From Bacteroidales bacterium (GTDB taxonomy: Bacteria > Bacteroidota > Bacteroidia > Bacteroidales > GCA-2748055), in assembly GCA_029931975.1 (NCBI GenBank), contig JAOZQY010000027.1, positions 1 to 45,962 on the forward strand: 45,962 bases of DNA, read 5' to 3'. The notes under the pieces are model-generated. The model ran no database searches. It was not told where the DNA came from and saw only the letters and a program-made list of their open reading frames with translations. Of the stretch, positions 4,701 through 35,410 are shown piece after piece (the stretch's first letter is position 1; every line of letters begins with the position of its first letter). Position numbers and translations under genes: made by a program.

Positions 4701-4746
4701 CAAGGAGATCTTTCTATGCTTTACAGTAAATTATTAAAACTTTAAA

Positions 4747-4786
4747 CGAAAGTTAATATGCTTTCATTCGAAAGTTTGTATATTTG
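4747..4786 (+). promoter_or_regulatory. Candidate promoter and DeoR-type operator of the glycyl radical operon
   Basis: TATATTTG at 4779-4786 matches the Bacteroidota -7 consensus TAnnTTTG and would put the transcript start about 20 bases before the ATG at 4813. Just upstream are two copies of CGAAAGTT (4747-4754 and 4769-4776), 22 bp apart, with an inverted CTTTC (4761-4765) between them. Repeated CTTTC/GAAAG half-sites about two helical turns apart are typical of DeoR-family operators such as those of AgaR. The DeoR-family gene that ends this operon is the obvious candidate binder. No clear -33 TTG box was seen. Motif positions are observed; function is inferred. Confidence 0.5.
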
Positions 4787-4812: not shown

Positions 4813-5703
4813 ATGATCTTCAATATCCAACGATACTCAACCCATGATGGAGATGGCATACGGACCCTGATTTTTTTCAAAGGATGTCCGTTACGATGCC
4901 AGTGGTGCAGCAACCCCGAAAGCCAGTCTTTTGGTCATAGTATTCTTTACGACTCTAAGCTCTGCAAAAACTTTGGAGATTGTGCACTTGCAGAGCCATC
5001 TGCGATAAGTACAAATCCTGGTGGAGGAATAGAGATCAAACGCAATCTGATTGCCGAGCCGGAAAAACTGAAAGAGGTATGTGCTACCAGGGCCCTTACA
5101 ATCTCGGGTGAAACGAAAAGTGTAGATGTGCTGATGGCAGAGGTTCAGAAAGACCTCCCTTTTTACCGGGAAGATGGTGGAGTAACTCTGTCAGGAGGTG
5201 AACCCCTGGCTCAAGGTAAGGAGCTTGTTCTATTGTTGCAGCAACTTAAGAAACAAGGTACAAATACCAATATAGAAACCTCACTTCATGTGAAATGGGA
5301 GCAGGTAGAAAGATGCATCGGTCTGGTAAATACCTTCCTGGTTGATCTGAAACATACTGATCCCAGGAAATTCAAGCAATTTACTCACGGAACTTCCGGT
5401 CTGGTGTTGGACAATCTGGAGAAACTGGCCTATTTTGGGGCCCATGTGGTGGTCAGGATACCGGTAATTCCTGGATTTAACCATACAGAACGTGAAATTA
5501 TGCAGATGGTCGACTATGTATCGACCATTAAAGGCCTCAAAGAAATACATTTTCTTCCCTACCATACATATGGAGTAGAGAAATATAAAATGCTGGGAAT
5601 GGATTATATTTTCAATAACAATACCCAGGTCCTTGAAGAGGAGCTGCTCCCCTATGTTCAATATGCACAATCACAAGGATTTAAAGCGAAAATTGGAGGA
5701 TGA
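4813..5703 (+). CDS. ybiY: Glycyl radical enzyme activase, radical SAM (YbiY-like)
   Basis: 296 residues. The N-terminus MIFNIQRYSTHDGDGIRT followed by the radical SAM motif CPLRCQWC is the PflA-type activase signature; TLSGGEP near residue 135 is the conserved SAM-binding GGE motif, and HFLPYHTYG is also present. The enzyme uses a 4Fe-4S cluster and SAM to place a radical on the glycine of its partner, here the next gene. Between about residues 55 and 100, where many activases carry two extra ferredoxin-type clusters, only three cysteines remain (LC, DC, VC); as I recall, E. coli YbiY is also depleted there. The stop TGA lies one base before the ATG of the glycyl radical enzyme, so the two are translated together. 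Target assignment to the adjacent enzyme is confident. Confidence 0.9.
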   Translation: MIFNIQRYSTHDGDGIRTLIFFKGCPLRCQWCSNPESQSFGHSILYDSKLCKNFGDCALAEPSAISTNPGGGIEIKRNLIAEPEKLKEVCATRALTISGETKSVDVLMAEVQKDLPFYREDGGVTLSGGEPLAQGKELVLLLQQLKKQGTNTNIETSLHVKWEQVERCIGLVNTFLVDLKHTDPRKFKQFTHGTSGLVLDNLEKLAYFGAHVVVRIPVIPGFNHTEREIMQMVDYVSTIKGLKEIHFLPYHTYGVEKYKMLGMDYIFNNNTQVLEEELLPYVQYAQSQGFKAKIGG

Positions 5704-5704
5704 G

Positions 5705-8125
5705 ATGATAGACACCAAACAAGTCACAGAGATCACAGAGCGAATTGCCCAATTGCGTGAAAAGGTACTGAGTAGCAAACCCACTGTTTGTACCGAGCGG
5801 GCCCGCTTCTATACTGAGATTTTCCGGGACCATGAAGATGAACCGGTGATTATCAAACGGGCACTGGCACTGCAGAAGACTCTTGTAAAGATGACCATCT
5901 TTATTGATAAGGGTGAGTTGATTGTGGGTAACCAGTCGTCCAGTCACCGGGCGGCCCCTATCTTTCCTGAATATGCGGTGGACTGGCTTCCGGAGGAGAT
6001 GGATGAGCTTGATAAACGTCCGGGAGATGCTTTTTATATTACTGAGGAGCATAAAGCAGAGCTTAAGGAGATTGCCTCCTGGTGGAAGGGCAAGGTGCTC
6101 TGGGACCGTGGAAGGGCGTTGATGACGCAGGAACTGCGCGATCTGCAGGATTCGGCAATCATCAAGGCCACCGGGAACCTCACCTCGGGTGATGCTCATA
6201 TTGCGGTTGACTTTCCGAAGATTCTGGAAGTGGGATTACAAGGCTATTTTGAAGAAATTAAACTCCACCATGAAGCTGTAGATCGTTCGGACCGTGAAGG
6301 AATCCGGAAGGATAAGTTTTACTCTGCTCTAACTATCGGACTGGAATCCTTTCAGACCTTTATTCGTCGTTATCGCGATTTGGCTAGCTACCTAAGTAAG
6401 GAGAGTGATGATCCTCAGCGGATTAATGAATTAAAACGCATTGCCGAAAACTGTGATGTGATTGCAGAGAAGCCCCCACAGGATTTCTACCAGGCCCTGC
6501 AGCTGGTTTATTTTGTACAGCTGATTCTACAAATCGAGAGCAACGGTCACTCGGTTTCCCTGGGCAGGCTTGATCAGTACCTCTACCCCTTCTTCCAGAA
6601 GGATCTTGCAGCTGGAAAGCTGGATGAGGACTTAGCTTCAGAATTACTTGAGAACACATGGATCAAGTTATTGTCCGTTAATAAGATAAGACCATGGTCT
6701 CATACCCGTTTTTCGGCTGGCGGACCTCTTTACCAGAATGTGACTATCGGTGGACAAACCACCGAAGGATCAGATGCCGTCAATGAACTCAGTTTTCTGG
6801 TACTTGATTCTGTGGGTAAAATGAAACTGACCCAGCCTAACCTGAGCGTTCGCTTTCATAAAGGAATTAGTGAGGAGTTTATGATGGCCTCCATGAAGGT
6901 GATTGAGAAAGGTTTCGGGATGCCTTCTTTTAACAATGATGAGATCGTGATCCCTGAACTGATCAAGATGGGTGTGGAACGAGATGATGCCTATAACTAC
7001 TCGGCCATTGGCTGTATTGAGATTGCTGTACCCGGGAAATGGGGCTACCGTTGCACCGGTATGAGCTTTCTGAATCTGATGCGGGTATTCCTGGCCACCT
7101 TGCATGACGGGTATGACAGTCAGTCGGGACAGACCTTCAGGAAAGGAACTGGGAACTTTAAGGATTTCAGCTCTTACGAAGAACTTTTTAAAGCCTGGCA
7201 GCAGCAGATCAAGTACTACACCAGGAAGACCGTGGAGATAGATACAGCCGTGGATACAGCGCTGGAGGAACATGTTCCTGACATTCTCTGTTCTGCTTTT
7301 GTGGATAGTTGTATATCCCGGGGAAAGACAATCAAGGAAGGTGGTTCCAAGTATGATTTTATTTCTGGTCTCCAGGTAGGTATCGCCAACCTGGGCAATG
7401 CCCTGGCAGCCATCAAAAAGCTGGTATATGAAGAGAAAAAGATAGGCAGGGAAGAGCTTTTGGATGCTTTGGAAAGTAATTTTGAAGGCAGGGAAGGCGA
7501 AAGAATAAGGCAGTTATTGCTGAACTTTGCTCCCAAATATGGCAACGATGATGATTATGTGGATCTCCTGCTGAAGGATGCTTATATGGAGTTTATCAAG
7601 GAATTGGAGAACTACCATACCACCCGCCATAACAGGGGTCCCATCGGTTGTAAATACTATGCAGGAACATCAAGCATCTCGGCCAATGTGCCCAGTGGCG
7701 CGGTGGTTCCGGCCACACCCGATGGTAGAAAGGCCTTTACTCCTGTGGCCGAAGGTAGCTCCCCTTCTTCAGGGACTGACTTGCTTGGACCTACTGCCGT
7801 ATTCAAGTCTGTGGCCAAGTTGCCCACTAATAAAATCATGGGCGGAGTGCTTCTGAATCAGAAGCTCAGTCCAGCTGCTATTGAGAAGGAGGCGGACAAG
7901 CACAAGCTGATTTCAGTGCTTCGTACCTTCTTTGCCGAGCTGAAGGGTTGGCATGTACAGTACAATATTGTTTCCAGGGAGACCCTGCTGGCTGCCAAGA
8001 AAGATCCGGAGAAATACAGAGACCTGGTGGTGAGAATTGCGGGATATTCTGCATTTTTTACTACATTATCTCCCGATACACAAGACGACATCATTGCTCG
8101 CACCGAACATACATTATCGCACTAA
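5705..8125 (+). CDS. ybiW: Glycyl radical enzyme, YbiW-like (candidate 1,5-anhydroglucitol-6-phosphate lyase)
   Basis: The frame is open from 5633, inside the activase gene, but the ATG at 5705 has GGAGG six bases upstream and gives the normal length of 806 residues (E. coli YbiW is about 810). The catalytic thiyl Cys and base are in GCIE (C437, E439) and the radical glycine is G780 in RIAGYSAFF, 27 residues from the end. The single Cys followed by x-Glu places it among eliminating (dehydratase/lyase) enzymes and not pyruvate formate-lyase, which has adjacent cysteines. Long stretches agree with my memory of YbiW, for example SALVD/SAFVD, GLQVGIANLGN, APKYGNDDD and GTSSISANVP. YbiW has been reported to open the ring of 1,5-anhydroglucitol-6-phosphate to 1-deoxyfructose-6-phosphate. 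The enzyme is cytoplasmic and destroyed by oxygen. The adjacent kinase fits a need to phosphorylate the substrate. Confidence 0.88.
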   Translation: MIDTKQVTEITERIAQLREKVLSSKPTVCTERARFYTEIFRDHEDEPVIIKRALALQKTLVKMTIFIDKGELIVGNQSSSHRAAPIFPEYAVDWLPEEMDELDKRPGDAFYITEEHKAELKEIASWWKGKVLWDRGRALMTQELRDLQDSAIIKATGNLTSGDAHIAVDFPKILEVGLQGYFEEIKLHHEAVDRSDREGIRKDKFYSALTIGLESFQTFIRRYRDLASYLSKESDDPQRINELKRIAENCDVIAEKPPQDFYQALQLVYFVQLILQIESNGHSVSLGRLDQYLYPFFQKDLAAGKLDEDLASELLENTWIKLLSVNKIRPWSHTRFSAGGPLYQNVTIGGQTTEGSDAVNELSFLVLDSVGKMKLTQPNLSVRFHKGISEEFMMASMKVIEKGFGMPSFNNDEIVIPELIKMGVERDDAYNYSAIGCIEIAVPGKWGYRCTGMSFLNLMRVFLATLHDGYDSQSGQTFRKGTGNFKDFSSYEELFKAWQQQIKYYTRKTVEIDTAVDTALEEHVPDILCSAFVDSCISRGKTIKEGGSKYDFISGLQVGIANLGNALAAIKKLVYEEKKIGREELLDALESNFEGREGERIRQLLLNFAPKYGNDDDYVDLLLKDAYMEFIKELENYHTTRHNRGPIGCKYYAGTSSISANVPSGAVVPATPDGRKAFTPVAEGSSPSSGTDLLGPTAVFKSVAKLPTNKIMGGVLLNQKLSPAAIEKEADKHKLISVLRTFFAELKGWHVQYNIVSRETLLAAKKDPEKYRDLVVRIAGYSAFFTTLSPDTQDDIIARTEHTLSH

Positions 8126-8156
8126 GCATTAACCACTAACCATTAACTTCCAATCC

Positions 8157-9119
8157 ATGCCAGGAATACTTTGCGGAGTCGATATCGGTGGAACCAAGTG
8201 TTCCATCGCCCTCATTGATGAAGAAGATGGCAAGATCCTGGATAAGATATATACCTGCGCGCATGTGGCTGAGGGTGAGAAGGGTATGGTCGATATGGTG
8301 GCTGGTCATGTAAAAGAGCTTCTGCAGCGTAACCAGATAAAACAGTCTGATCTTCCCGCCATAGGAGTGGGTTGTGCGGGCCATATTCGTCACAGCGACG
8401 GGGTAATTATCACTACTTCCAACCTGGAGGGATTCAATAATTACCCCCTGCGTGAAAAATTACAATCCCATTTCGAAATCCCGGTGATCCTGGATAATGA
8501 TGCCAATGCCCAGGCATTTGGGGAGTATAAGTTTGGCGCTGGCCAGGGCTATGAGGATATGATCTTTGTGACCATCAGTACGGGAATTGGAGCCGGGATA
8601 GTGATTAACGGGAAGCTATATCGGGGGATGACCGGTACCGCCGGCGAATTCGGACATACTATTGTGGAGCCGGATAGTAAACTGGTCTGTAACTGCGGGA
8701 ATCGGGGATGTATCATGGCCCTAGCCTGCGGCATGGCCCTCCCCTACATGTTCGAAAAGAAGCTAAAAGAAGGTCTTAAGACCAAATTGAAGATGCCTCC
8801 CAACTTTAATATTTCAAAAATAAACGGGCAGACCCTTAAGAAGGGACTGGATATGGATGATCCGCTGTCCAAAGCGGTGATCTCCGACAGCGCCTACTAT
8901 GTGGGGATCGGGCTCTATAACCTGTTTCAAACTCTGAATCCGCCCCTGATTGTGCTGGGCGGGGGATTGACCAACTGGGGAGAGTTTTACCTGGATAAGA
9001 TCAAGGAGACTTTCTATACATTGGCCAGGGATATGATATTCGATCCCATAGAGATCACCCTTTCTGATATTATTGGTGATGCCGGGGTGATCGGTGCCGC
9101 CGCTTTGAGCCTTGAATAA
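8157..9119 (+). CDS. ROK family sugar kinase
   Basis: 320 residues. The ATP-binding motif VDIGGTK is at residues 8-14, the catalytic Asp is in DNDANAQ (D115), and the ROK zinc site is present as GEFGH (H167) plus CNCGNRGC (C178, C180, C185). The C-terminal GGGLTNWG segment is also typical. ROK kinases phosphorylate glucose, mannose, fructose, allose or N-acetyl sugars at C6; unlike the NagC-type repressors there is no N-terminal helix-turn-helix. In this operon the likely substrate is the free form of the glycyl radical enzyme's substrate, such as 1,5-anhydroglucitol or 1,5-anhydromannitol; that is inference. It starts 31 bases after the glycyl radical enzyme and its stop is one base before the ATG of the DeoR regulator. 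Confidence 0.88.
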   Translation: MPGILCGVDIGGTKCSIALIDEEDGKILDKIYTCAHVAEGEKGMVDMVAGHVKELLQRNQIKQSDLPAIGVGCAGHIRHSDGVIITTSNLEGFNNYPLREKLQSHFEIPVILDNDANAQAFGEYKFGAGQGYEDMIFVTISTGIGAGIVINGKLYRGMTGTAGEFGHTIVEPDSKLVCNCGNRGCIMALACGMALPYMFEKKLKEGLKTKLKMPPNFNISKINGQTLKKGLDMDDPLSKAVISDSAYYVGIGLYNLFQTLNPPLIVLGGGLTNWGEFYLDKIKETFYTLARDMIFDPIEITLSDIIGDAGVIGAAALSLE

Positions 9120-9120
9120 G

Positions 9121-9867
9121 ATGCTGAACGAACGACAGAGCAGGATCCTGGAGATCCTTGGAACAGACAACCGGACCTCGGTAAATGAGCTTTCGCAGAA
9201 GCTGGATGTGTCTTCGGTGACCATTCGGCAGGACCTGAATCACCTGGAGTCGCAGGGACTGCTGAAAAGGGTTCATGGCGGAGCTGTGCTAAAGGACGGA
9301 GACGACCTTGATAACCGCCTGGGGATCAATTATGATCAGAAGTTAAAAATTGCCCATAAAGTGGCTGGATATGTGAATGATGGGGAGACGATTCTAATTG
9401 AATCGGGTTCGGTTAATGCTCTGCTTGCCAGGGAAATTGTAGCACATAAGAAGGTGACTATCATTACCACCAATGTCTATATTGCCCGTCAATTCAGGAA
9501 GAATAGTAAGGCCAATATTATTTTGCTTGGCGGAATTTACCAGCCCGACAGCGAGGCCCTGGTGGGTAAAATGACCCGGGCCTGCATCGACCAGCTGAAT
9601 ATTGACAAGGCCTTTATCGGCATCGATGGATATACCCCGGAAAAAGGTTTCATGCTGCGCGATCTCTTCAGGGCCGAGGTCTCCAGTCATATCATACAGC
9701 GAGCCAAAGATGTTTTCATCGTATCAGACTCCAGTAAGTTCGGGAAAACCGAGCTGACCAGCATCTGTTGTTTATCGGAGATCAGACATGTGGCCACCAA
9801 CGAGGATCTGCCTCAGGAGTTCAAAGAAGCTTTTCAGAAAGCGAATGTGGATCTGATTCTGGCCTAG
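9121..9867 (+). CDS. DeoR family transcriptional regulator
   Basis: 248 residues from the ATG at 9121, directly after the kinase stop; a TTG at 9112 in the same frame would add three residues and overlap the kinase. Residues 1-57 are the DeoR helix-turn-helix (RQSRILEIL...VSSVTIRQDLNHLESQGLL). The rest is the DeoRC sensor fold, with IESGS, IGIDGYT and SDSSKFGK, where such proteins bind phosphorylated sugars. As the last gene of the operon it probably represses it and is relieved by a phosphosugar made by the kinase or by the glycyl radical enzyme. Candidate binding sites lie at 4747-4776. Confidence 0.9.
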   Translation: MLNERQSRILEILGTDNRTSVNELSQKLDVSSVTIRQDLNHLESQGLLKRVHGGAVLKDGDDLDNRLGINYDQKLKIAHKVAGYVNDGETILIESGSVNALLAREIVAHKKVTIITTNVYIARQFRKNSKANIILLGGIYQPDSEALVGKMTRACIDQLNIDKAFIGIDGYTPEKGFMLRDLFRAEVSSHIIQRAKDVFIVSDSSKFGKTELTSICCLSEIRHVATNEDLPQEFKEAFQKANVDLILA

Positions 9868-21096: not shown

Positions 21097-22878
21097 ATGT
21101 ATATGAAAATCTTAGTTTTTTCATTATTTATCTGCATGCTATTATCAGCATGCAATACACCGCAAGAACTTAGTGAAACCAGCTCACCGAACATTATTCT
21201 GGTGATGACAGACGACCAGGGATATGGGGATCTGGGTTTACATAAAAATCCTTATATCAGGACCCCGGTACTGGATTCTCTGGCCAGACACAGTACCAGA
21301 ATAGATCCCTTTTATGTATCTCCCGTATGTGCACCCACCCGTTCCAGCCTGATGACTGGAAGGTATCACCTGCGCACAGGTGTCTATGATACTTACAACG
21401 GTGGAGCCATGATGTCCACGGAAGAGCAAACTGTGGCCGAGGTGCTTGCTGAACATGGCTACCATACAGCCATGGTGGGTAAATGGCACCTGGGCGACTC
21501 CTATCCAATGAGGCCCATGGACCAGGGTTTTCAGTATTACCTGGCCCATAAGGGAGGTGGAATTGGTCAGCCCGGAGATGATTTTGGAAACTTTATGCGG
21601 ACAGATAGCTCCTATTTTGATCCATTTCTCTGGGAAAACGGGAAGCGGGTAAGACGATCAGGCTATTGCTCTGACATTTTTACAGATCAGGCCATTGAAT
21701 TTATTACCTCACACACCAGCGAACAGGCTAAGAATCCCTTCTTTCTCTACCTGGCCTTTAATGCACCCCACACACCCCTCCAATTGCCAGAAAAATATGA
21801 ACAGGAATATAGCGAGATGGAGTATGGAAGTACAGATTTCTTAGTGAGTGGCGGAAATGTGTCTGAAATGAATGAGCGGGATATGGAAAGTGCCCGGAGG
21901 GTATATGGCATGGTCAGTAATATTGATGATAACATGGGCCGTCTTCTGAGTACTTTGAAAAAGCTGGGGATAGAAGAGAACACCCTGGTCGTCTTTCTCA
22001 CCGACAATGGTCCCCAGCAAAGAAGGTATACGGCGGGACTGAACCAGAGGAAATCGAGTGTTATGGAGGGAGGCATACGGGTTCCATGTATGTTTTACTG
22101 GAAGGAAAAGCTCCAGGAAAACCGTATAATAAACACCCCATCTGCCCATATCGATATGATGCCTACTCTGCTGGATTTTGCAGGGATATCCTATAGCGGG
22201 GATATGGATGGAATCAGCCTGGAGCCTGAACTCACAGGGAAACATGTATCCAAAGAAGACCGTTCCCTCTTTTTTGTCTGGGACCGGGGATACCCGCAGC
22301 GGTACAGTAATATGGCTGTAAGAAAGGGTCGTTATAAGCTGGTGGGTCAGACCGAACATGGAGAAACAAATGATCATCTGAAACTTTTCGATTTGGAGAA
22401 TGATCCTTATGAACTGGTGGATGTAAGTGCGGAACAAAGGGAGGTGAAGGCTGCCTTGCAACTGGAACTGGATCAGTGGTACGAAGAGATCATTGTGAGT
22501 CCCCATCTGTTGAAGTCGCCCAGAATGATTATCGGGTCCGAATATGAGAACACCGTGATCCTGGGACGCAACGACTGGAAAGGTCCTAAAGCTATGCAAT
22601 GGGCCTCTGATCAGGCATTTGGCTATTATGATATAACGTTCGTGGACCCTGGACCTTATTCGGTTAAGATGGTTTTCAAAGAGTCTCTCCCTGCTGCGGG
22701 ACAAGTGAGGATCAGGGTGGGTACGCGACAGTACTGGTTCAGCAATCGCGATACGACAATCAGCGAAATTAGCATGGAAGATTTATTGTTCGACCGGGGA
22801 GATCATGCTTTTGAGGCCTGGTACCAGGCAAAAGGTGGAATTTATTCACCCATCTGTATTGAAGTAGAAAAGCGGTAA
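21097..22878 (+). CDS. Sulfatase (S1 family, CxPxR type), lipoprotein
   Basis: 593 residues from the ATG at 21097; an ATG at 21103 is equally possible. The lipobox LLSACN puts the lipidated Cys at residue 19. The formylglycine motif CAPTRSSLMTGR starts at C78, metal ligands include the Asp pair in TDDQGYGD (39-40), and VGKWHLG and TDNGPQ follow. After the sulfatase fold there is an extra C-terminal beta domain of about 110 residues (from about 480). Family enzymes remove sulfate esters from glycans once Cys is oxidised by an anaerobic sulfatase-maturing enzyme, which is not in this window. It is the first gene of a sulfatase-GH2-sulfatase operon; the next start is 3 bases after its stop. Confidence 0.92.
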   Translation: MYMKILVFSLFICMLLSACNTPQELSETSSPNIILVMTDDQGYGDLGLHKNPYIRTPVLDSLARHSTRIDPFYVSPVCAPTRSSLMTGRYHLRTGVYDTYNGGAMMSTEEQTVAEVLAEHGYHTAMVGKWHLGDSYPMRPMDQGFQYYLAHKGGGIGQPGDDFGNFMRTDSSYFDPFLWENGKRVRRSGYCSDIFTDQAIEFITSHTSEQAKNPFFLYLAFNAPHTPLQLPEKYEQEYSEMEYGSTDFLVSGGNVSEMNERDMESARRVYGMVSNIDDNMGRLLSTLKKLGIEENTLVVFLTDNGPQQRRYTAGLNQRKSSVMEGGIRVPCMFYWKEKLQENRIINTPSAHIDMMPTLLDFAGISYSGDMDGISLEPELTGKHVSKEDRSLFFVWDRGYPQRYSNMAVRKGRYKLVGQTEHGETNDHLKLFDLENDPYELVDVSAEQREVKAALQLELDQWYEEIIVSPHLLKSPRMIIGSEYENTVILGRNDWKGPKAMQWASDQAFGYYDITFVDPGPYSVKMVFKESLPAAGQVRIRVGTRQYWFSNRDTTISEISMEDLLFDRGDHAFEAWYQAKGGIYSPICIEVEKR

Positions 22879-22881
22879 AAT

Positions 22882-25695
22882 ATGTACAAGATGAAAATAG
22901 CAGGAATACTACTATCCGGACTTCTTCTTGTACTCCTTCCCTTTGTTTCTGTCCACGGACAGGATACTGAAGTAATCTACCTCTCAGGAACCGGATTCGA
23001 TAATACCGTGGAATGGGACTTTTACTGTAGCAATGGAATGAACAGTAAGGCCTGGACTACTATACAGGTCCCCTCCTGCTGGGAGCAGCAGGGATTTGGT
23101 GAATATAATTATGGACATGTTCCACTGGAAAACCGCTTAAAAGAAGAGGGACACTACAGGTATTTCTTCGATGTCCAAAAAGCCTGGAGAGGAAGGCAGT
23201 TGAAATTGGTTTTTGAAGGTGTGATGACAGATGCCCAGGTGTTGGTTAATGGAAAGCAGGCCGGAGAAGTACATCAGGGAGGCTTTTACCAGTTCATTTA
23301 TTATATTTCAAAACTGGTGAAGTATGGAAAAGAAAACAAGCTGGAGGTGAAGGTAAAGAAGTACTCAGATAATGAGTCGGTTAATCAGGCTGAACGCAAG
23401 GCCGATTACTGGGTGTTTGGAGGAATCTACCGTCCTGTCAGACTGGAGATCAAACCTGAAAATAATATCAACACAGTGGCGATAGATGCATGTGCAGATG
23501 GTATGTTTAGGGCAGACATCGGGCTGGAAGGTAATACGTCAGGGGGGAAAGTACTTGTGGATATTCTTGACCGGGAGGATAGTGTGGTAAGTGCTTTTGA
23601 GACGGTTGTTCCGCCCGAATCTGATAATATCAGAGTAGAGGGAAAAGTGGAATCGCCTCTTCAGTGGAATCCTGAGTTTCCCAATCTCTACACTGCTCAA
23701 TTCACTTTACTGGATGAGGGTGGTGAAGTAATTCACCGGGTAAAGGAGAAGATAGGTTTCAGAACTGTGGAGGTCCGGCCCGAGGACGGAATATATGTGA
23801 ATGGGGAACGCATCAAGTTCAAGGGCGTTTGCAGGCATTCCTTTCATCCTGATCACGGCCGTACATCAAGTAAAGCTTTCAGTATCGAAGTGGTGAACCT
23901 ACTGAAGGATATGAATATGAATGCGGTACGCATGTCACACTACCCTCCTGATGTGCATTTTTTAGATGTTTGTGATTCGCTGGGACTCTTTGTACTGGAC
24001 GAACTGGCCGGCTGGCAGCGTCCCTCCTACGATTCAGTGGTAGGTCGTAAGCTACTTGGTGAGATGATAGCACGCGATGTGAATCATCCCTCTGTGGTGA
24101 TGTGGGATAATGCCAATGAAGGAGGCTGGAACAAAGCCTACGACAAGGATTTCAAAGAACTTGATATCCAGCAGCGGGAGGTCAATCACCCCTGGGCGGT
24201 TTTTGGGCTGACCAATACGGCCCACTATGTGAACTATGATTACCTGGCCATGGACCATTTTGCGCCCAGGAAAATCTTCTTTCCCACGGAGATGATTCAT
24301 GGCTTGTATGATGGGGGGCACGGAGCCGGACTGGAAGATTTTTGGCTGCGTATGTGGAACAATCCCCTCAGTGCTGGCGGATTTCTCTGGGTATTTGCCG
24401 ACGAAGCCGTCAAACGCAGCGACACTGGGAAGCTGGATTCAGATGGAAACCATGCCCCCGATGGCATCCTGGGACCCTATCATGAAAAGGAGGGTAGCTT
24501 CTATGCTATCCGTGAAATCTGGTCGCCCGTGCACTTCGAAAAACGCTATATCACTTCCTGGTTTAACGGAATCTTTCGTATCCAGAACCGCTTTCATTAT
24601 ACGAACCTGGATCAATGCAACTTTCGCTACAACTGGATCAAACTAAAGGGGCCGGGTAATCCTGGGGTGATTGATCCTTCATCCATTGAATCGGGACAGG
24701 TGCTTGATTTTGGCCGGCCACTGGTAGACCCTCTTGAACCAGGACAGAACGGAATACTGGAAGTTCCCTTGTTTGATGGCTGGCAGGATTGTGATGTACT
24801 TTACATGGAAGCATTTGATCCTCATGGACGTTTAATTCATCGCTGGAGCTGGCCGCTTAAGTCGCCGGATCAAAGCACCGCTGAATTACTGGTCCCGGGG
24901 ACTCCAGGAGTTATTGCTGTATCGGAAACTAACGAAACTCTGATCCTTGAATCGGGACCTGTGATCATAGAATTCTCCAAAGCAGATGGAACACTGAAGA
25001 GGGTAAACTCGGGAGAATGGCAGGTACCTTTGTCGGATGGACCGATTTTCAGGGATGATGACCTTCAGCTCATCTCATTCAGACATTTTTCCGGCGAGGA
25101 CAGTCACCATGTGCTTGTGGATTTTGGAAGGGAGGGCAGCCTGGAGTGGATTTTGCATGCCGGGGGACTGCTTGACATGAAACTTCACTATCAGCCTGGA
25201 GAACAAAGACTTCCCTTTACCGGCGCCTCCTTTTCTTTTCCGGAACAAGGTGTCCGGACAGTTAGTTACCTGGGGAACGGACCCTACCGGGTATGGAAAA
25301 ACCGGATGAAGGGAGTAAACTTCAATGTATGGAACAAGAAGTACAACAACACCATTACGGGCCACTCAGGGTTTGACTACCCGGAATTTAAAGGATATTA
25401 TTCAAATCTCTACTGGGCCAGGATCACAGATCTTCAGGATCGGCATTTCACTGTTTACAGTCATACCGATGATTTGTTTCTAAGATTATTCACTCCCGAA
25501 GAGGCTCCCCAACCGGCAGGAACCGCGGTGATCCATCCCCCGGGAGACCTTTCCTTTATGCTGGGAATTCCAGCTATTGGAACCAAATTTAAAAACGCAG
25601 AAGAACTTGGCCCACAGTCCTGTGATTATTATTATATAAAGCGAAGAGTTAGCGGTGAATCTCTTCAGATTGAACTTACTTTTGACTTCAAATAG
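22882..25695 (+). CDS. Glycoside hydrolase family 2 (beta-galactosidase-like)
   Basis: 937 residues with a signal peptide (KIAGILLSGLLLVLLPFVSV). The GH2 order is clear: a jelly-roll sugar-binding domain (VPSCWEQQGFGEYNYG, ADYWVFGGIYRPVRLE), an Ig-like domain, the TIM barrel (GVCRHSFHPDHGR, MNAVRMSHYPPD) and C-terminal beta domains. By position the acid/base is E413 in WDNANEGG and the nucleophile is E470 in FFPTEMIHG. Substrate could be a beta-galactoside, glucuronide or mannoside; sequence alone does not decide. It is exported and sits between two sulfatases, so it likely works on a glycan after desulfation. The second sulfatase starts 7 bases after its stop. Confidence 0.9.
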   Translation: MYKMKIAGILLSGLLLVLLPFVSVHGQDTEVIYLSGTGFDNTVEWDFYCSNGMNSKAWTTIQVPSCWEQQGFGEYNYGHVPLENRLKEEGHYRYFFDVQKAWRGRQLKLVFEGVMTDAQVLVNGKQAGEVHQGGFYQFIYYISKLVKYGKENKLEVKVKKYSDNESVNQAERKADYWVFGGIYRPVRLEIKPENNINTVAIDACADGMFRADIGLEGNTSGGKVLVDILDREDSVVSAFETVVPPESDNIRVEGKVESPLQWNPEFPNLYTAQFTLLDEGGEVIHRVKEKIGFRTVEVRPEDGIYVNGERIKFKGVCRHSFHPDHGRTSSKAFSIEVVNLLKDMNMNAVRMSHYPPDVHFLDVCDSLGLFVLDELAGWQRPSYDSVVGRKLLGEMIARDVNHPSVVMWDNANEGGWNKAYDKDFKELDIQQREVNHPWAVFGLTNTAHYVNYDYLAMDHFAPRKIFFPTEMIHGLYDGGHGAGLEDFWLRMWNNPLSAGGFLWVFADEAVKRSDTGKLDSDGNHAPDGILGPYHEKEGSFYAIREIWSPVHFEKRYITSWFNGIFRIQNRFHYTNLDQCNFRYNWIKLKGPGNPGVIDPSSIESGQVLDFGRPLVDPLEPGQNGILEVPLFDGWQDCDVLYMEAFDPHGRLIHRWSWPLKSPDQSTAELLVPGTPGVIAVSETNETLILESGPVIIEFSKADGTLKRVNSGEWQVPLSDGPIFRDDDLQLISFRHFSGEDSHHVLVDFGREGSLEWILHAGGLLDMKLHYQPGEQRLPFTGASFSFPEQGVRTVSYLGNGPYRVWKNRMKGVNFNVWNKKYNNTITGHSGFDYPEFKGYYSNLYWARITDLQDRHFTVYSHTDDLFLRLFTPEEAPQPAGTAVIHPPGDLSFMLGIPAIGTKFKNAEELGPQSCDYYYIKRRVSGESLQIELTFDFK

Positions 25696-25702
25696 AAAGC
25701 TT

Positions 25703-27079
25703 ATGAAATCTCCATTATCTTCAATTTTACTGGCTCTTATGGTGCTGGGTCCATATTCATGCAAGACTGAACAGTTGCCTGCAAAACCTAATGTTGTGAT
25801 TATCTTCCTGGATGATTCAGGATGGTCCGATTTTGAGCCCTTTGGGAAAGTTTCTGTGGAAACTCCCAATGTAAGTCAGCTGGCTGCTGAAGGGACTGCT
25901 TTCCATAACTTCTATGTACCCCAGGCGGTTTGTTCAGCTTCTCGTTCAGCCCTGATGAGCGCTTGTTTCCCGGGACGCACGAAAGTTTTCGGAGCCCACG
26001 GACCCAATGCATGGGGACTTGATACCACCTTTGCCACCATGGGTGAGGTTTTTAGTCAGGCGGGCTATGCCACAGCCGCATTCGGTAAATGGCATTGTGG
26101 CGATCAGCCTGAAACCAGGTCCTATGCACGGGGTTTTGATGAGACCTGCGGTCTGATGTACTCCAATGATATGTGGAAAAACCATCCGGGGAATCCTGAG
26201 TACTGGGGCCAATGGCCCCTGAAGTTCTGGGAGAACGGACAGGTGACCATTGAGGATGTGGACCATCAGGATCAGAAGAACCTGACCCGTTGGTATACCG
26301 AACATGCAGTGGATTTCATCGACCGGAACCAGGATAGTGCCTTCCTGCTCTATGTTCCCCACAGCATGCCCCATGTCCCTCTCCATTGCAGTGACAGGTT
26401 TGCAGGTAAATCAGGTAAGGGCCTGTACTGGGATGTGATGCTGGAAATCGACTGGAGTGTGGGAGAGATCAACCGGGCCCTGAAGGAGCGTGGACTTGAA
26501 AACAATACCATTGTGATCCTTACCTCCGACAACGGACCCTGGGTTTCTTACGGCGATCATGCCGGAACCACTCCTTTCAGGGAGGCCAAAGGGACCTCCT
26601 TTGACGGGGGCGTCCGTTCAGCATGCATTATGAAATTCCCTGGTAAAATTGAAGAAGGAAAGATCTCTGATAGAACTTTTGGTTCAGTGGATCTCCTTCC
26701 CACCCTATGTCACCTGGCCGGTATTCCATTGCCCGAAAATGAGATTGACGGGGAAAATGTTTGGGGATTGATATCCGGTGTTGAAGGTGCGGTTAACCCG
26801 CACTCCTACTATGCCTTTTCAAATAATAGCAATTTTGAAGGGGTAATGAGCGGAGACGGCAGGTGGAAATTACACCTCCCCCATGAATATCGTACCCTGG
26901 ACTCTGCAGGAAGCGGGGGATATCCCGGCAAATATGCCATATCGAAAATCGATACGTCCCTTTTCGATATGGTGGCAGACCCTTTCGAAACCACCAATGT
27001 GATCGGGGAATACCCGGAAAAGGCAGAGATGCTTCTTGGTCTGGCAGCGGCCCACGCTGAAAAGTTTTACAGCGAGTAA
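25703..27079 (+). CDS. Sulfatase (CxAxR type), lipoprotein
   Basis: The frame opens within the GH2 gene at 25655, but the ATG at 25703 gives a lipoprotein signal (ALMVLGPYSC, Cys 20) and is preferred; 458 residues. The formylglycine site is CSASR (C77), the less common CxAxR form. Metal ligands LDDSGWSD (37-38) and TSDNGPW are present, with FGKWHCG. It is the third gene of the operon and converges with the aldo/keto reductase gene 11 bases away. It differs enough from the first sulfatase to act on another sulfate position. Confidence 0.9.
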   Translation: MKSPLSSILLALMVLGPYSCKTEQLPAKPNVVIIFLDDSGWSDFEPFGKVSVETPNVSQLAAEGTAFHNFYVPQAVCSASRSALMSACFPGRTKVFGAHGPNAWGLDTTFATMGEVFSQAGYATAAFGKWHCGDQPETRSYARGFDETCGLMYSNDMWKNHPGNPEYWGQWPLKFWENGQVTIEDVDHQDQKNLTRWYTEHAVDFIDRNQDSAFLLYVPHSMPHVPLHCSDRFAGKSGKGLYWDVMLEIDWSVGEINRALKERGLENNTIVILTSDNGPWVSYGDHAGTTPFREAKGTSFDGGVRSACIMKFPGKIEEGKISDRTFGSVDLLPTLCHLAGIPLPENEIDGENVWGLISGVEGAVNPHSYYAFSNNSNFEGVMSGDGRWKLHLPHEYRTLDSAGSGGYPGKYAISKIDTSLFDMVADPFETTNVIGEYPEKAEMLLGLAAAHAEKFYSE

Positions 27080-30706: not shown

Positions 30707-33700
30707 TTACACTTTTCCCTGTTTTTCTTTATCATTTCGTAGCAGCCATAGGTAGGCATCCTCCAGGAGCGGAGATTCTTCAATGGAATCTTCAAAGGGT
30801 TTCTCTGCAGCAATAGCTCTGAAGCGGATGTTTTGACCATCGCGCATATGGTGCACCACCAGCATCTCTTTACTTGCTTCTTCAAATTCTTTTTCAGGAA
30901 GAGAGGATTTCCATACCCTGCCCCTTGCAATTTCGGTCATCTCTGTTGGGGTGCCATTAAAGAGCACCTCTCCCCTGTTGATTACCGCCATGGTATTGCA
31001 TGAACTGGAAATATCTTCAATAATATGGGTAGAGAAGATAACCACACGCGTAGTACTCAGTTCCACCAGCAGGTTGCGGAAACGGATCCGTTCCCTTGGA
31101 TCCAGTCCCGCCGTGGGCTCATCCACCACCAGGATGCGTGGCAGGTGGAGCAGCACCTGGGCAATGCCGATGCGTTGCTTCATCCCCCCCGAATAGGCCC
31201 CGATCTTTTTCTTACGCTGATCCCACATATGCACCGAATTCAGCACTTCTTTGATTCGTTTAGCACGTACATCAGGATCTTTTATTCCCTTTAATACTGC
31301 CAGATAGTCAAGGTAGGAATAGGCCGACATATTCTCGTACATGCCAAATTCCTGGGGCAAATAGCCTATCAGTCCCTGCAACTCTTCCCGCTTCTCCTGG
31401 GTATCAATACCATTGATCCAGATCTTACCATAACTCTGCTCCAGGATGCCGCAGATAATACGAATCATGGTTGATTTCCCGGCACCATTGGGCCCCAGCA
31501 ATCCAAACATCCCGGTTCCAATCTCCAGGGAAACCCCCTTGAGTGCTTTGAATTTTTCGGGCCCCTTACCCAATCCGGGAAGTACTGAGACAAACCAGGC
31601 AAACCAGCGGAAGATGGGACGAATCTTTTTCAGCTCAAAATTTCGTTTTTTAAGCAGTTTCGAAATAACTCCCATGGCAATAACCAGGTACCACAGAAAA
31701 CCTGCCACTATGCTCAGGGCAGCGTTGTTCCAACGAAGCTGGAAAATGACCAGCACAGCTACCGGGGCCCCATATCTGACTGCTGAGTTGAGTATTTCTA
31801 AGGAGCGGCGCTTGCCTAAGCTGCTGAAGTCGCCCAGGATTGCTACCAGGTAGTAGTAGGCCACAGCCGAAGAAACCAACTGCCAGAAGCCACTTAGCAG
31901 GAAGAACCAGGAGAAATATACCAGGAAGGCCAGGAGAGGAATCTGCCAGATGAGCGACTCCAACCTTGGTTTGAGTGTACGATCGGCCATCCTGGCTACT
32001 TTGGCCAGTCTGCCACCACTCTGGAACTCCCTGATCATTCGGGACTCTCTTCCATAGATCTTTACCAGGTTGGAGACCTGGATATGGATATCGCTTTGCT
32101 CATCAATAATGCGTTCCGATGCTTTACGAAGACTGTTGGAGATAAACCACCAGACTATCGGGATCCCCACAATAACCAGGAGTCCTGCGGCCATCTTCCA
32201 GATAAAGGTTTCCAGGTAAAGTGCCACCAGGAGCATTCCTGCCAGCTCCAGGATCAACAGGAAGATTTTGACCACCAGTTTTTGTGCCCCGATCCACTTC
32301 AGTGCCTGTTCGACACCATTATAGAGCATGGGAATATAGATCAGGGTCAACAGCGTACTCAGGCTTAGTCCCCCGATAACCGTAATGGCAAAGGGTGGGC
32401 CAATGGCTTCTACATACTCAGCATTGCCCATGGCCAATGGAATCATGGCCACACAGGTGGTTACCGCCGTAATCAGGATGGGACGCACCCTGGAGAGTCC
32501 GGCCACAAGGATGGCCCGTTGTTTCCGGTATCCTCTCTTACGCAATACGTTGATGAAATCGATCAGAATGATCCCGTTGTTGACCACCACGCCCAGCAGG
32601 ATCAGAAATCCCATGATGGTGTTGGCATTGAAAAGTGATTCGCCGGTGACTGTCAATAGCAAAAATGAACCAATGGCTGCCAGTGGAATAGAAAATAGCA
32701 GCACAAAGGGAGTCACAAAGGATTCAAAGATGGCTGCCAGGATCATATAGACCAGCAACATGGCAATCAAGAACATATACTTGAAATCGTCCAGTCCGGA
32801 ATCCTCCTGGACCAGCTCTACAGCTACACCCGAAGGAATATTGGAATTCTGAATCAGGTTCTCAATTTCGCTCCTGGCATAAGTCAGGAGCTCGTTTGAG
32901 TCGTACACATCGTCGTTGTACTGGTAACGAAGCTCCACCCTCTTTTCCTGGTTGACACGGGAGATATCACGCAGGCCTGTAGCATAAAAGATCTCGGAGA
33001 TCTCCTGCAGCTCAAAAAGATTCTCGTCATAACTGTCGGGAATCTGCAGTCCCTGCAGGTCCTCCATCCGCTTCTCCTCCTCATCCACCGCATCGTTATA
33101 CTTAATGATGATTTCATACTCCTCATTGTCCTGACTGAAATTTACACCCGAGCTGATTTCGCTGGTAAAGGAGCTCAGTTCATTGACCACCCCTCCCCGT
33201 GTAATGTTGTAACGGTCCATCATCAGGGAATTGAAGTCCAGATGCACCTCCGGCTGGTTTTCGCGAACCGAAAGCCTGGCAGAGCTGATATTTTCCAGTT
33301 CGTCCATATAGGATTGCAGGACCTCTCCCACCTCTACAAGCAGGTTAAAATCCTGTCCCTTCAGAACGATATACTCCTCATCTTCCCCAATTCCCAGTAA
33401 TTTCTCAAAACCGGCTTCTCCACCCATGTTGCCTCCATCTCCACCTCCACGCAATTTCCCGCTTCCCGACGAGGAAGCAGTCAGACTGATATCCGATGCC
33501 GGAAGATCCTTTACCATCTCGTAGGCTTCCGACTGTATCTGTCCGAAGGAACGATTGGCAATTTTACGATAATCATCCTGTAGCATAATGGTGACGGTGG
33601 CCTCCTCCTCTTCTATTCGGGAGATCACCTCCTTATGCTCTTCAATCTCCATCAGTGCCGTCTCCATACCAGAAACCAGAGCATCGGTGGTATTTAACGT

Positions 33701-35410
33701 GGTACCGGTAGGCATGGTCACATAGAGGGTAATCTGATTGGTTTCCAGTTCCGTAAGCTTATTTACCGATACAGAGAGGGTGCTCAGGATGGTTCCGAAA
33801 AAGAGGATCAACACCCCTATAATGGTAGGTGCAGGATTTCTGAGGGCTGTTTTTAGCAAAGACAGGTAGATTCGTACCAGCCGGTTATCCAGCGATACCT
33901 CCTGGTAGACTTCCCGTTTCTCCAGCTTCCTGCGCTTCATTATAAAATGAACCCCCATGGGTATTAGCAAGAGTGATACAAGCAGGGATATGGTCAGAGT
34001 GGAGATAATGGATACACCGATATGCCTGGCTAACAGCTTGATAAGGAAATCAGACGAGAAGACAAAGGGGATGAATACGGCTATGGTGGTTCCTGTGGCG
34101 GCCACAATGGAACGCCAAACTTCCCCGCTACCTCTAAGCACAGCTTCGGCCGGTTTTACCCCCAGACTCCTGAGCCGGTATATATTCTCCAGCACCACTA
34201 CCGAAGTATCGAGCAGCATGCCCACCGCAAGTGCAATACCAATCAGTGTGAGGCTATTGATGGAGATATCAAAGGCAAAAAAGAAATTGAATGCGGTAAA
34301 AATTGAGATGGGCATGGCCAGAGCCACCAGCAGCACCAGCTTTACATTGCGAAGAAAAACCCACAAGACAAAGATTGCCAGCAGTGCACCGGTAAGCGCC
34401 AGGCGGATGATCTGGTTGATATTATCCTCCATTAACTCCGCACTGTTTTCCTGCACAATTACCTCAACATCAAAGGGGGCACCCTCCCTGTTCAGCCTCT
34501 CAAGCTGATCATTCACCTTGTGAGAGAGATCTATGATATTGGCCTGGGCATCGTTGATAAGCTCCAGGGACACTGCATCTAAGCCATTGACACGGCTGAT
34601 AGTCTCTTCTTCCTTCTCTCCATAATAGACCTCTGCAATATCCTTCAACCTTACAGGCATAGTTCCCCGTCCGATAATTAACTCCTCGATCTGGGAGATA
34701 TGGTCATATTCGGCGTTCAGGTAGACAAAGAAACGCTGTCCTTGTTCTTTTACTGTGCCCCCATACTGGCGAAGGTTCATGTTGGAGGCGAGGACGTTCC
34801 TTACCCTGGAAGGAGCAATATTGTATGCTTCACATGCGGCCCGGTCCAGGATAATATCCACCGATTTCTGCTTTCCCCCGAAAACATTGACTGCTGCCAC
34901 TCCCTCTATATTCTCCAGCTCATTTATGATATGCTGATCCACATAATTTCGGACCCGGTCCACACCTCCCGATCCCCTGGCCTGCAGACTCATCAGGGTG
35001 TTATCTGCTGCATCCAGATCAATTTTCACCACCTGCAGGGTGAAATCATCGCTTAGATCGCCCCGGATGGCACTTACTTGTTCGTCCAGCTTCAGATAGG
35101 CATATTTCAGATCGGTACGCTTTTCGTAGGAAATAAGGATGGAACCGGTTCGCCGCCCGGCATTGGACTGGATCTCTTCGATGTTGTCCAATCCCGCGAT
35201 CATACTTTCCACCGGGACAATGGCCTCCTGTTCCATATATTCGGGAGTTACCTCTATCCTGGAATTAATCTGTATGAAGAGCATGGGCAGCTCCGCATTG
35301 GGAAATATCTCCATCTTCAACTGTTTCCAGGAGAGGATGCCAAGCATGGTTGCTGCAATAAACAGCATGGAAATGAGAACCTTTCGCTGTATGAGGAAGT
35401 GCTTATTCAC
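30707..35410 (-). CDS. RND efflux transporter fused to an ABC ATPase (1567 residues)
   Basis: Starts at a GTG (35410) overlapping the upstream RND stop by 8 bases, with GGAGG before it. Residues 1 to about 1035 are a full RND pump: N-terminal helix, porter domains, TM4 motif GMLLDTSVVVLEN (D401, T402) and TM10 VVVNNGIILID (N944, N945). Two or three further helices follow (about 1045-1092). Then the first strand of an ABC domain appears (IQVSNLVKIYG, Y1119), interrupted by about 165 residues with about four membrane helices, before the ABC domain resumes at F1287 (FKALKGVSLEI). Walker A K1312, Q-loop Q1353, signature YSGGMKQ (1406-1412), Walker B D1430-E1431 and H-loop H1462 are all intact. 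The reading frame is continuous with no sign of a sequencing join. An ABC-2 permease follows. The protein likely couples ATP use to an RND export complex; the cargo is unknown. Confidence 0.9.
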   Translation of the reverse strand: MNKHFLIQRKVLISMLFIAATMLGILSWKQLKMEIFPNAELPMLFIQINSRIEVTPEYMEQEAIVPVESMIAGLDNIEEIQSNAGRRTGSILISYEKRTDLKYAYLKLDEQVSAIRGDLSDDFTLQVVKIDLDAADNTLMSLQARGSGGVDRVRNYVDQHIINELENIEGVAAVNVFGGKQKSVDIILDRAACEAYNIAPSRVRNVLASNMNLRQYGGTVKEQGQRFFVYLNAEYDHISQIEELIIGRGTMPVRLKDIAEVYYGEKEEETISRVNGLDAVSLELINDAQANIIDLSHKVNDQLERLNREGAPFDVEVIVQENSAELMEDNINQIIRLALTGALLAIFVLWVFLRNVKLVLLVALAMPISIFTAFNFFFAFDISINSLTLIGIALAVGMLLDTSVVVLENIYRLRSLGVKPAEAVLRGSGEVWRSIVAATGTTIAVFIPFVFSSDFLIKLLARHIGVSIISTLTISLLVSLLLIPMGVHFIMKRRKLEKREVYQEVSLDNRLVRIYLSLLKTALRNPAPTIIGVLILFFGTILSTLSVSVNKLTELETNQITLYVTMPTGTTLNTTDALVSGMETALMEIEEHKEVISRIEEEEATVTIMLQDDYRKIANRSFGQIQSEAYEMVKDLPASDISLTASSSGSGKLRGGGDGGNMGGEAGFEKLLGIGEDEEYIVLKGQDFNLLVEVGEVLQSYMDELENISSARLSVRENQPEVHLDFNSLMMDRYNITRGGVVNELSSFTSEISSGVNFSQDNEEYEIIIKYNDAVDEEEKRMEDLQGLQIPDSYDENLFELQEISEIFYATGLRDISRVNQEKRVELRYQYNDDVYDSNELLTYARSEIENLIQNSNIPSGVAVELVQEDSGLDDFKYMFLIAMLLVYMILAAIFESFVTPFVLLFSIPLAAIGSFLLLTVTGESLFNANTIMGFLILLGVVVNNGIILIDFINVLRKRGYRKQRAILVAGLSRVRPILITAVTTCVAMIPLAMGNAEYVEAIGPPFAITVIGGLSLSTLLTLIYIPMLYNGVEQALKWIGAQKLVVKIFLLILELAGMLLVALYLETFIWKMAAGLLVIVGIPIVWWFISNSLRKASERIIDEQSDIHIQVSNLVKIYGRESRMIREFQSGGRLAKVARMADRTLKPRLESLIWQIPLLAFLVYFSWFFLLSGFWQLVSSAVAYYYLVAILGDFSSLGKRRSLEILNSAVRYGAPVAVLVIFQLRWNNAALSIVAGFLWYLVIAMGVISKLLKKRNFELKKIRPIFRWFAWFVSVLPGLGKGPEKFKALKGVSLEIGTGMFGLLGPNGAGKSTMIRIICGILEQSYGKIWINGIDTQEKREELQGLIGYLPQEFGMYENMSAYSYLDYLAVLKGIKDPDVRAKRIKEVLNSVHMWDQRKKKIGAYSGGMKQRIGIAQVLLHLPRILVVDEPTAGLDPRERIRFRNLLVELSTTRVVIFSTHIIEDISSSCNTMAVINRGEVLFNGTPTEMTEIARGRVWKSSLPEKEFEEASKEMLVVHHMRDGQNIRFRAIAAEKPFEDSIEESPLLEDAYLWLLRNDKEKQGKV

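Follow-up and report, generated by a model that had tools for sequence, protein, structure and literature searches.

In Escherichia coli, the ybiUVWY/fsaA genes reportedly make up the 1,5-anhydroglucitol (AG) branch of anhydroglycolysis, as described by Ma et al. in 2024. According to a review, this route begins with phosphorylation of AG by the phosphotransferase system (PTS), and YbiW is the enzyme that cleaves 1,5-anhydroglucitol-6-phosphate (AG6P) (PMC12441222). Here we compare these genes with a four-gene operon on a 45,962-nucleotide contig from an uncultured member of the Bacteroidota, the whole of which is referred to below as the window. We propose, with a probability of roughly 0.8 and on the strength of sequence comparison, that this operon would encode a kinase-fed form of anhydroglycolysis, self-contained for AG and placed under a YciT-type repressor. 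Our literature search, which was not aimed at YciT, found neither a Bacteroidota operon of kinase and glycyl radical enzyme (GRE) nor a Bacteroidota YciT operator named.

Results

A tight operon of four genes

The operon runs from 4813 to 9867 on the forward strand and comprises genes for an activase, a GRE, a ROK-family kinase, and a DeoR-family regulator, separated by only 1, 31, and 1 bp (Table 1). A first-pass annotation, made from the letters of the DNA alone, had described such a four-gene operon, and gene positions, strand, spacing, and NCBIfam and Pfam families all bear it out. The activase scores 307 bits against TIGR02494 (cut-off 174), so that a dedicated activase, as required in E. 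coli anhydroglycolysis, is in place, and the GRE scores 1035 bits against TIGR01774 (cut-off 678). The GRE most likely starts at the ATG at 5705 rather than at the TTG at 5633 chosen by the open reading frame program; for the regulator, the ATG at 9121 is the most likely start, because the reading frames of relatives mostly begin there and encode 247 to 248 residues.

Table 1. Features of the operon and its upstream region (window coordinates)
Feature	Position	Strand	Basis or remark
Operator copy 1, ACTTTAAACGAAAG, putative DeoR/YciT-type site	4739..4752	.	Weaker copy, 9/14 to consensus
Operator copy 2, near-perfect palindrome CTTTCATTCGAAAG	4761..4774	.	Putative site
-7 promoter box TATATTTG (TAnnTTTG, Bacteroidota type)	4779..4786	+	
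Activase, radical SAM, CxxxCxxC, YbiY-like	4813..5703	+	TIGR02494, Radical_SAM; CPLRCQWC at residue 25
GRE, YbiW ortholog	5705..8125	+	57% identity to E. coli YbiW, tree, motifs
ROK-family sugar kinase, GCxM instead of GCx(E/D)	8157..9119	+	Pfam ROK, 231 bits
Codon of ROK Met187, position of the 1-OH-engaging residue of a ROK kinase	8715..8717	+	Alignment; PMC10031466
DeoR-family regulator, YciT-like	9121..9867	+	DeoRC and HTH_DeoR; 45% identity to E. coli YciT

The window is contig C172 of a genome (G000) of 4.76 Mb in 366 contigs that is 96% complete. Elsewhere on this contig, a GH2 glycosidase gene is flanked by two sulfatase genes (21097-27079), an arrangement that suggests use of sulfated glycans and has no visible link to the operon. 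A 1567-residue open reading frame (30707-35410) combines a full RND efflux domain (residues 4-1031) with an ABC ATPase domain (residues 1290-1434), as either a fusion or a frame artefact.

The unit is conserved in gene order and restricted in distribution

A collection-wide genome scan recovered 24 related loci with a GRE 74-91% identical to that of the window, all in metagenome-assembled genomes (MAGs) labelled as Bacteroidota, its subgroups, or Chlorobiota. Wherever the junction can be read, the activase precedes the GRE (22/22), the ROK gene follows it (20/20), and the DeoR gene comes after (19/19), the unreadable junctions (2, 4, and 5, respectively) being contig ends; because the order is kept at every readable junction, the operon is not a chance layout. 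Genes farther out are common to at most four of the 25 loci, and therefore the unit consists of these four genes. The fucosidase and deacetylase genes upstream of the operon were considered as members and rejected, being present beside it in only some relatives. We found no transporter or aldolase gene conserved next to the operon, and none of 20 flanking genes scanned, hand-chosen from a longer list and drawn from 11 loci, encodes an aldolase. A GntP-family permease gene lies downstream in L016, within a cluster that recurs only in L015.

Distribution is narrow. Across 395 phylum-wide genomes, the GRE ortholog occurs solely in the window's own genome, the best full-length matches in the rest reaching 31-35% identity (49-60% in short pieces of 50-88 residues). 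Among 100 close relatives it occurs in 11, all of the window's genus (11/18), whereas the 10 further genomes from the family and the 72 from the order lack it. The ROK ortholog (71-95% identity, 528-725 bits) accompanies it in 10 of these 11 genomes, the 11th having a contig that breaks off within the GRE gene. None of the 89 close relatives without the GRE ortholog carries a ROK ortholog: their ROK proteins score no more than 155 bits, with identities of up to 36% over long stretches and up to 39% in partial matches.

Some related loci depart from this layout in detail. In two, a 123-residue protein, which by eye we take to resemble four-helix-bundle/intervening-sequence proteins, is encoded between GRE and ROK (L015:10462-10833 and L026:2907-3278). 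L014 and L016 have a gap at this position in which no gene of 80 or more residues was called. Two MAGs (L023, where the region also contains unknown residues, and L026) have the GRE gene divided between frames, through either assembly error or decay.

The glycyl radical enzyme groups with YbiW

The GRE is 57% identical to E. coli YbiW and 38% identical to PflD (BLAST), in agreement with the first-pass annotation, which had called it YbiW-like. Against three YbiW-type PDB chains (6xs4, 8yjn, and 8id7) it scores 1019-1030 bits, compared with 632 bits for a solved glycerol dehydratase and 523 bits for PflD; 6xs4 is deposited as a formate C-acetyltransferase, yet aligns like YbiW. A tree had been set beforehand as the check that could overturn the assignment. 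In our quick maximum-likelihood tree of YbiW, PflD, operon GREs, and 36 other Bacteroidota GREs, which covers part of that check since glycerol and diol dehydratases entered only pairwise score comparisons, YbiW and 23 operon GREs form one group with an SH-aLRT of 100, although long branches are flagged and the depth of the group is unsure. PflD instead pairs with a PflD-like GRE from the window's genus (SH-aLRT 99). The tree holds 61 of 63 rows, L012 and L023 being excluded as partial; the sequences of L025 and L026 did not reach the length needed for inclusion.

The catalytic Cys437 and Glu439 (GCIE) and the radical Gly780 (AGYS) are all present. Across 25 operon GRE rows (gaps ignored) and YbiW, 310 window positions are invariant, 72 of which are not shared by PflD and are found in at most three of the 36 other GREs. 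Several of these YbiW-specific positions fall in or beside active-site motifs, including H282 (NGHSVS) and W446 and R449 (KWGYRCTG). By these comparisons, the enzyme is the Bacteroidota counterpart of E. coli YbiW. The second GRE of this genome (L001, contig C325) was also considered as part of the system and set aside, as it is HypD, trans-4-hydroxy-L-proline dehydratase (1186 bits, cut-off 1100).

A motif acid is replaced in the operon ROK kinase

The kinase displays the ROK motifs DIGGT at residue 9 (DxGxT), NDAN at 114 (catalytic Asp), EFGH at 164 (ExGH), and CNCGNRGC at 178 (zinc Cys). The CxCGxxGCx(E/D) motif of ROK proteins, as defined in PMC5458393, ends in an acid, in whose place the window protein has Met187. 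This change to GCxM is found in all 23 distinct operon ROKs, compared with Glu (GCxE) in all 14 other ROKs with the zinc motif, comprising 12 from the relatives' genomes together with E. coli NagK and Mak. The 12 were drawn from 30 other ROK loci (10 + 20), those not counted having no zinc motif or failing the filter; with a looser filter, and before the two E. coli proteins were added, Glu is found in 15/15. All five PDB alignments of the ROK protein that were displayed likewise have Glu at this position.

D187 of P. shigelloides NagK interacts with the 1'-OH of GlcNAc, and the D187N variant has a kcat/Km lowered about eightfold, from 2.1 to 0.26; the same account names one other NagK in which this residue differs (PMC10031466). 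E. coli NagK has Glu186 at the motif-acid position, which equates with D187 of the P. shigelloides enzyme if a one-residue offset is assumed. Because 1,5-anhydro sugars lack the 1-OH, a hydrophobic residue would be expected at the position that engages it. This argument would be weakened by the placement of Glu187 near O5/O6 of glucose in E. coli glucokinase, a non-ROK enzyme (PMC13133996); another paper says of this residue that it bonds glucose and nothing further (PMC12312565).

PTS_EIIC (PF02378), the one EIIC family searched for, has no match in any of the six genomes searched, so the PTS step of the E. coli pathway was not found in them. The first-pass annotation had proposed that the kinase makes the phosphorylated substrate from the free anhydro sugar, an idea that gains support from the strict co-occurrence of ROK and GRE, the Met at the motif acid, and the lack of PTS_EIIC in 6/6 genomes. 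The operon ROK may be regarded as a candidate soluble AG kinase with a one-residue signature.

Later steps of the pathway

Neither FsaA/TalC (TIGR00875) nor the whole TAL_FSA family (PF00923) has a match in the 96%-complete genome, where the FsaA/FsaB aldolase that E. coli anhydroglycolysis requires was accordingly not found; the absence of an FsaA-type aldolase, first noted for the window, thus extends by these profiles to the whole assembly. PF00923 is present in two of 10 GRE-bearing genus mates, both proteins being transaldolases by NCBIfam, and in nine of 19 genomes of other operon loci, with ten matches, at least one of which (L024) comes from a genus-mate genome already counted. From these ten, L134-L136 and that of L024 were scanned with NCBIfam (the remaining six are L137-L142): L134 passes the FSA cut-off with 284 bits, L135 falls just under it (231 of 246), and L136 is weaker (169). 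Only one of the five PF00923 proteins of related genomes scanned lies over the FSA cut-off, so that conservation of the first step of the published pathway does not extend to the second.

Overall, 19 of 30 GRE-bearing genome handles have no PF00923 match, a count in which a few genomes appear twice and many are incomplete MAGs. Because a gene of the FsaA/transaldolase family was not found in many GRE-bearing genomes, in many of these one of three explanations must hold: 1-deoxyfructose-6-phosphate is split by a different enzyme, it has another fate, or the gene was missed by the assembly. The DeoC family (PF01791) has three matches in G000, and the two scanned are TIGR00126. Since the family is present in 6/6 genomes and has no link to the operon, DeoC-type proteins as the missing aldolase are only a guess. 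In the search for GldA, two Fe-ADH genes were found in G000, and the one scanned falls below all equivalog cut-offs.

Putative operator sites, promoter, and a YciT-type regulator

Upstream of the activase gene, two sites resembling the palindrome CTTTCATATGAAAG are found in 20/20 readable loci (from 25 operon loci, with L004, L014, L020, L021, and L026 excluded because their upstream DNA is missing or unclear), spaced 22 bp apart in 18 and 21 bp in two. The better site agrees with the consensus at no fewer than 11 of 14 positions in 16/20 loci (1.3% of shuffles) and the second at no fewer than 10 in 12/20 (0.8%), scores that are partly circular, as the consensus was picked by eye from those 20 loci; the spacing and the E. 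coli matches described below are the independent parts. In the window, operator copy 2 is the only match to the pattern YTTTYRWWYRAAAR, with 0.07 expected. TAnnTTTG is the -7 consensus of Bacteroidota promoters, and it follows operator copy 2 by 4-7 nt in 18/20 loci, compared with 2.6% in a shuffle control. A sigma-70 scan gave no signal beyond shuffles, as expected for Bacteroidota. The position of the putative operators would fit repression by promoter blocking.

Over 230 residues, the DeoR protein shares 45% identity with E. coli YciT. YciT is also its best NCBIfam model, at 238 bits, which is below the curated cut-off of 450 and above the next model at 168; the same model ranks first in 7/7 DeoR proteins scanned (the window and six relatives), all of them below the curated cut-off. 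The recognition-helix sequence TIRQDL is found in 20/20 operon DeoR proteins and in YciT.

A weight matrix built from Bacteroidota sites only gave three matches in the 14-kb E. coli ybi locus, namely just before ybiU, before ybiV, and between the divergent ybiYW and fsaA, compared with one in 195 kb of control E. coli sequence. No match was found in the E. coli pflD/frw/fsaB/gldA locus. The lone control match (L150:16880-16893, E. coli K-12) lies upstream of pdeR on the strand toward yciZ and yciT, where it may reflect YciT autoregulation or chance.

In a study of E. coli regulators (PMC8464067), YciT ChIP-exo peaks lie upstream of ybiUVWY and fsaA, and deletion of yciT changes expression of ybiV, ybiY, and fsaA. 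A further report (PMC12132413) describes YciT enrichment at the ybiYW promoter and anaerobic activity of that promoter. Given the shared motif, the likeness to YciT, and this published binding at ybi promoters, our comparison suggests that AG use in the two phyla relies on a common type of regulator and a common operator code. PMC8464067 also lists 49 YciT binding sites, 23 of them regulatory and including ybiO, cusF, and ompX, records slower growth of the deletion strain at high osmolarity, and gives the authors' proposal of an osmolarity role besides an uncharacterised pathway. These many other sites and the osmolarity phenotype count against a dedication of YciT to the AG pathway.

Alternative substrates and functions

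The chemistry proposed here could also serve another epimer, with the operon handling 1,5-anhydromannitol or a further 1,5-anhydrohexitol. PflD, a 38% relative of the GRE, takes the mannitol epimer according to a review (PMC12441222). We nevertheless consider this unlikely, as the GRE groups with YbiW and not PflD, carries YbiW-specific residues near its active-site motifs, and coexists in the window's genus with a separate PflD-like GRE, found in two genomes (L154 and L155). In one of these (G411, L155:8225-11721), the PflD-like GRE, 41% identical to PflD, is followed directly by a different ROK protein of 375 residues without the zinc motif, possibly a second GRE-ROK pairing for the mannitol epimer.

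Slightly less probable again is a kinase whose substrate is either a 1-O-substituted glycoside, as in beta-glucoside kinases, or a common hexose, and whose link to the GRE is indirect. Loss of the motif acid may also accompany a blocked C1, since a Listeria ROK protein deposited as a beta-glucoside kinase (4htl) has Asn at the equivalent position (PMC5458393), and the best NCBIfam model of the operon ROK is ROK glucokinase, at 227 bits against a cut-off of 260. The strict inheritance of this ROK together with the GRE argues against such a role, and a glycoside phosphate would need a hydrolase, none of which is conserved in the unit. A role for the GRE as a dehydratase of glycerol, propanediol, or another diol was rejected on pairwise scores and alignment and appears very improbable: glycerol dehydratase is the GRE's next solved relative, but YbiW chains outscore it by about 390 bits. 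In addition, where the dehydratase has GWHDSAF, the window GRE and YbiW both have GYRCTGMSF in pairwise alignment, and therefore Asp447, a residue that matters in glycerol dehydratase, is not kept.

Discussion

Orthology, gene order, the change at the motif acid, the operator, and the regulator match rest on comparison, which supports the first-pass interpretation in essence. The operon appears to work like the AG branch of anhydroglycolysis, and not like the E. coli pathway gene for gene, because PTS and FsaA were not found. In the scheme that we infer, the ROK kinase would phosphorylate free AG to AG6P, replacing the PTS step of E. coli. Under anoxia, the activase would give the YbiW-type enzyme its glycyl radical, and this enzyme would in turn open the ring of AG6P, its presumed substrate, to yield 1-deoxyfructose-6-phosphate. 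The operon's own YciT-type DeoR protein would repress transcription from the pair of palindromes that closely precedes the -7 box, and a sugar phosphate of the pathway would be the effector that releases this repression.

A broader reading, on which we are evenly divided, is that AG use from Bacteroidota to E. coli is controlled by a repressor of the YciT type that reads a single operator code. The orphan YciT would then at heart regulate anhydroglycolysis, with osmolarity not its primary concern, and the Bacteroidota form would pair a novel AG kinase with an aldolase that is not related to FsaA. The comparison thus suggests a role for E. coli YciT, the target pathway of which is left open in PMC8464067. 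The kinase-fed scheme would extend a recently described radical route for AG to uncultured Bacteroidota, and the operon exposes a missing enzyme after ring opening in many GRE-bearing genomes.

Comparison with known systems

The E. coli pflD/frw/fsaB/gldA locus (AM branch) encodes a GRE and activase related to those of the window, its PflD being 38% identical, but unlike the window it has linked PTS genes, fsaB, and gldA. No homolog of E. coli FsaA, YbiV, or YbiU was found beside the window operon, and FsaA was not found in G000 either. With ROK glucokinases, NagK, and NanK, the window kinase shares DxGGT, the catalytic Asp, ExGH, and the zinc cysteines, whereas the acid after GCx is Met in the window. 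The E. coli ybiUVWY/fsaA system is the closer counterpart, having in common a YbiW-type GRE with adjacent activase and a YciT-type regulator, although a PTS takes the place of the ROK kinase. The window regulator falls below NCBI's curated YciT cut-off and is encoded inside the operon, whereas E. coli yciT is unlinked to ybi. The two proteins nonetheless share 45% identity and the TIRQDL recognition helix, YciT itself binds ybi promoters (PMC8464067), and ybiU, ybiV, and ybiYW/fsaA carry the same operator motif as the window.
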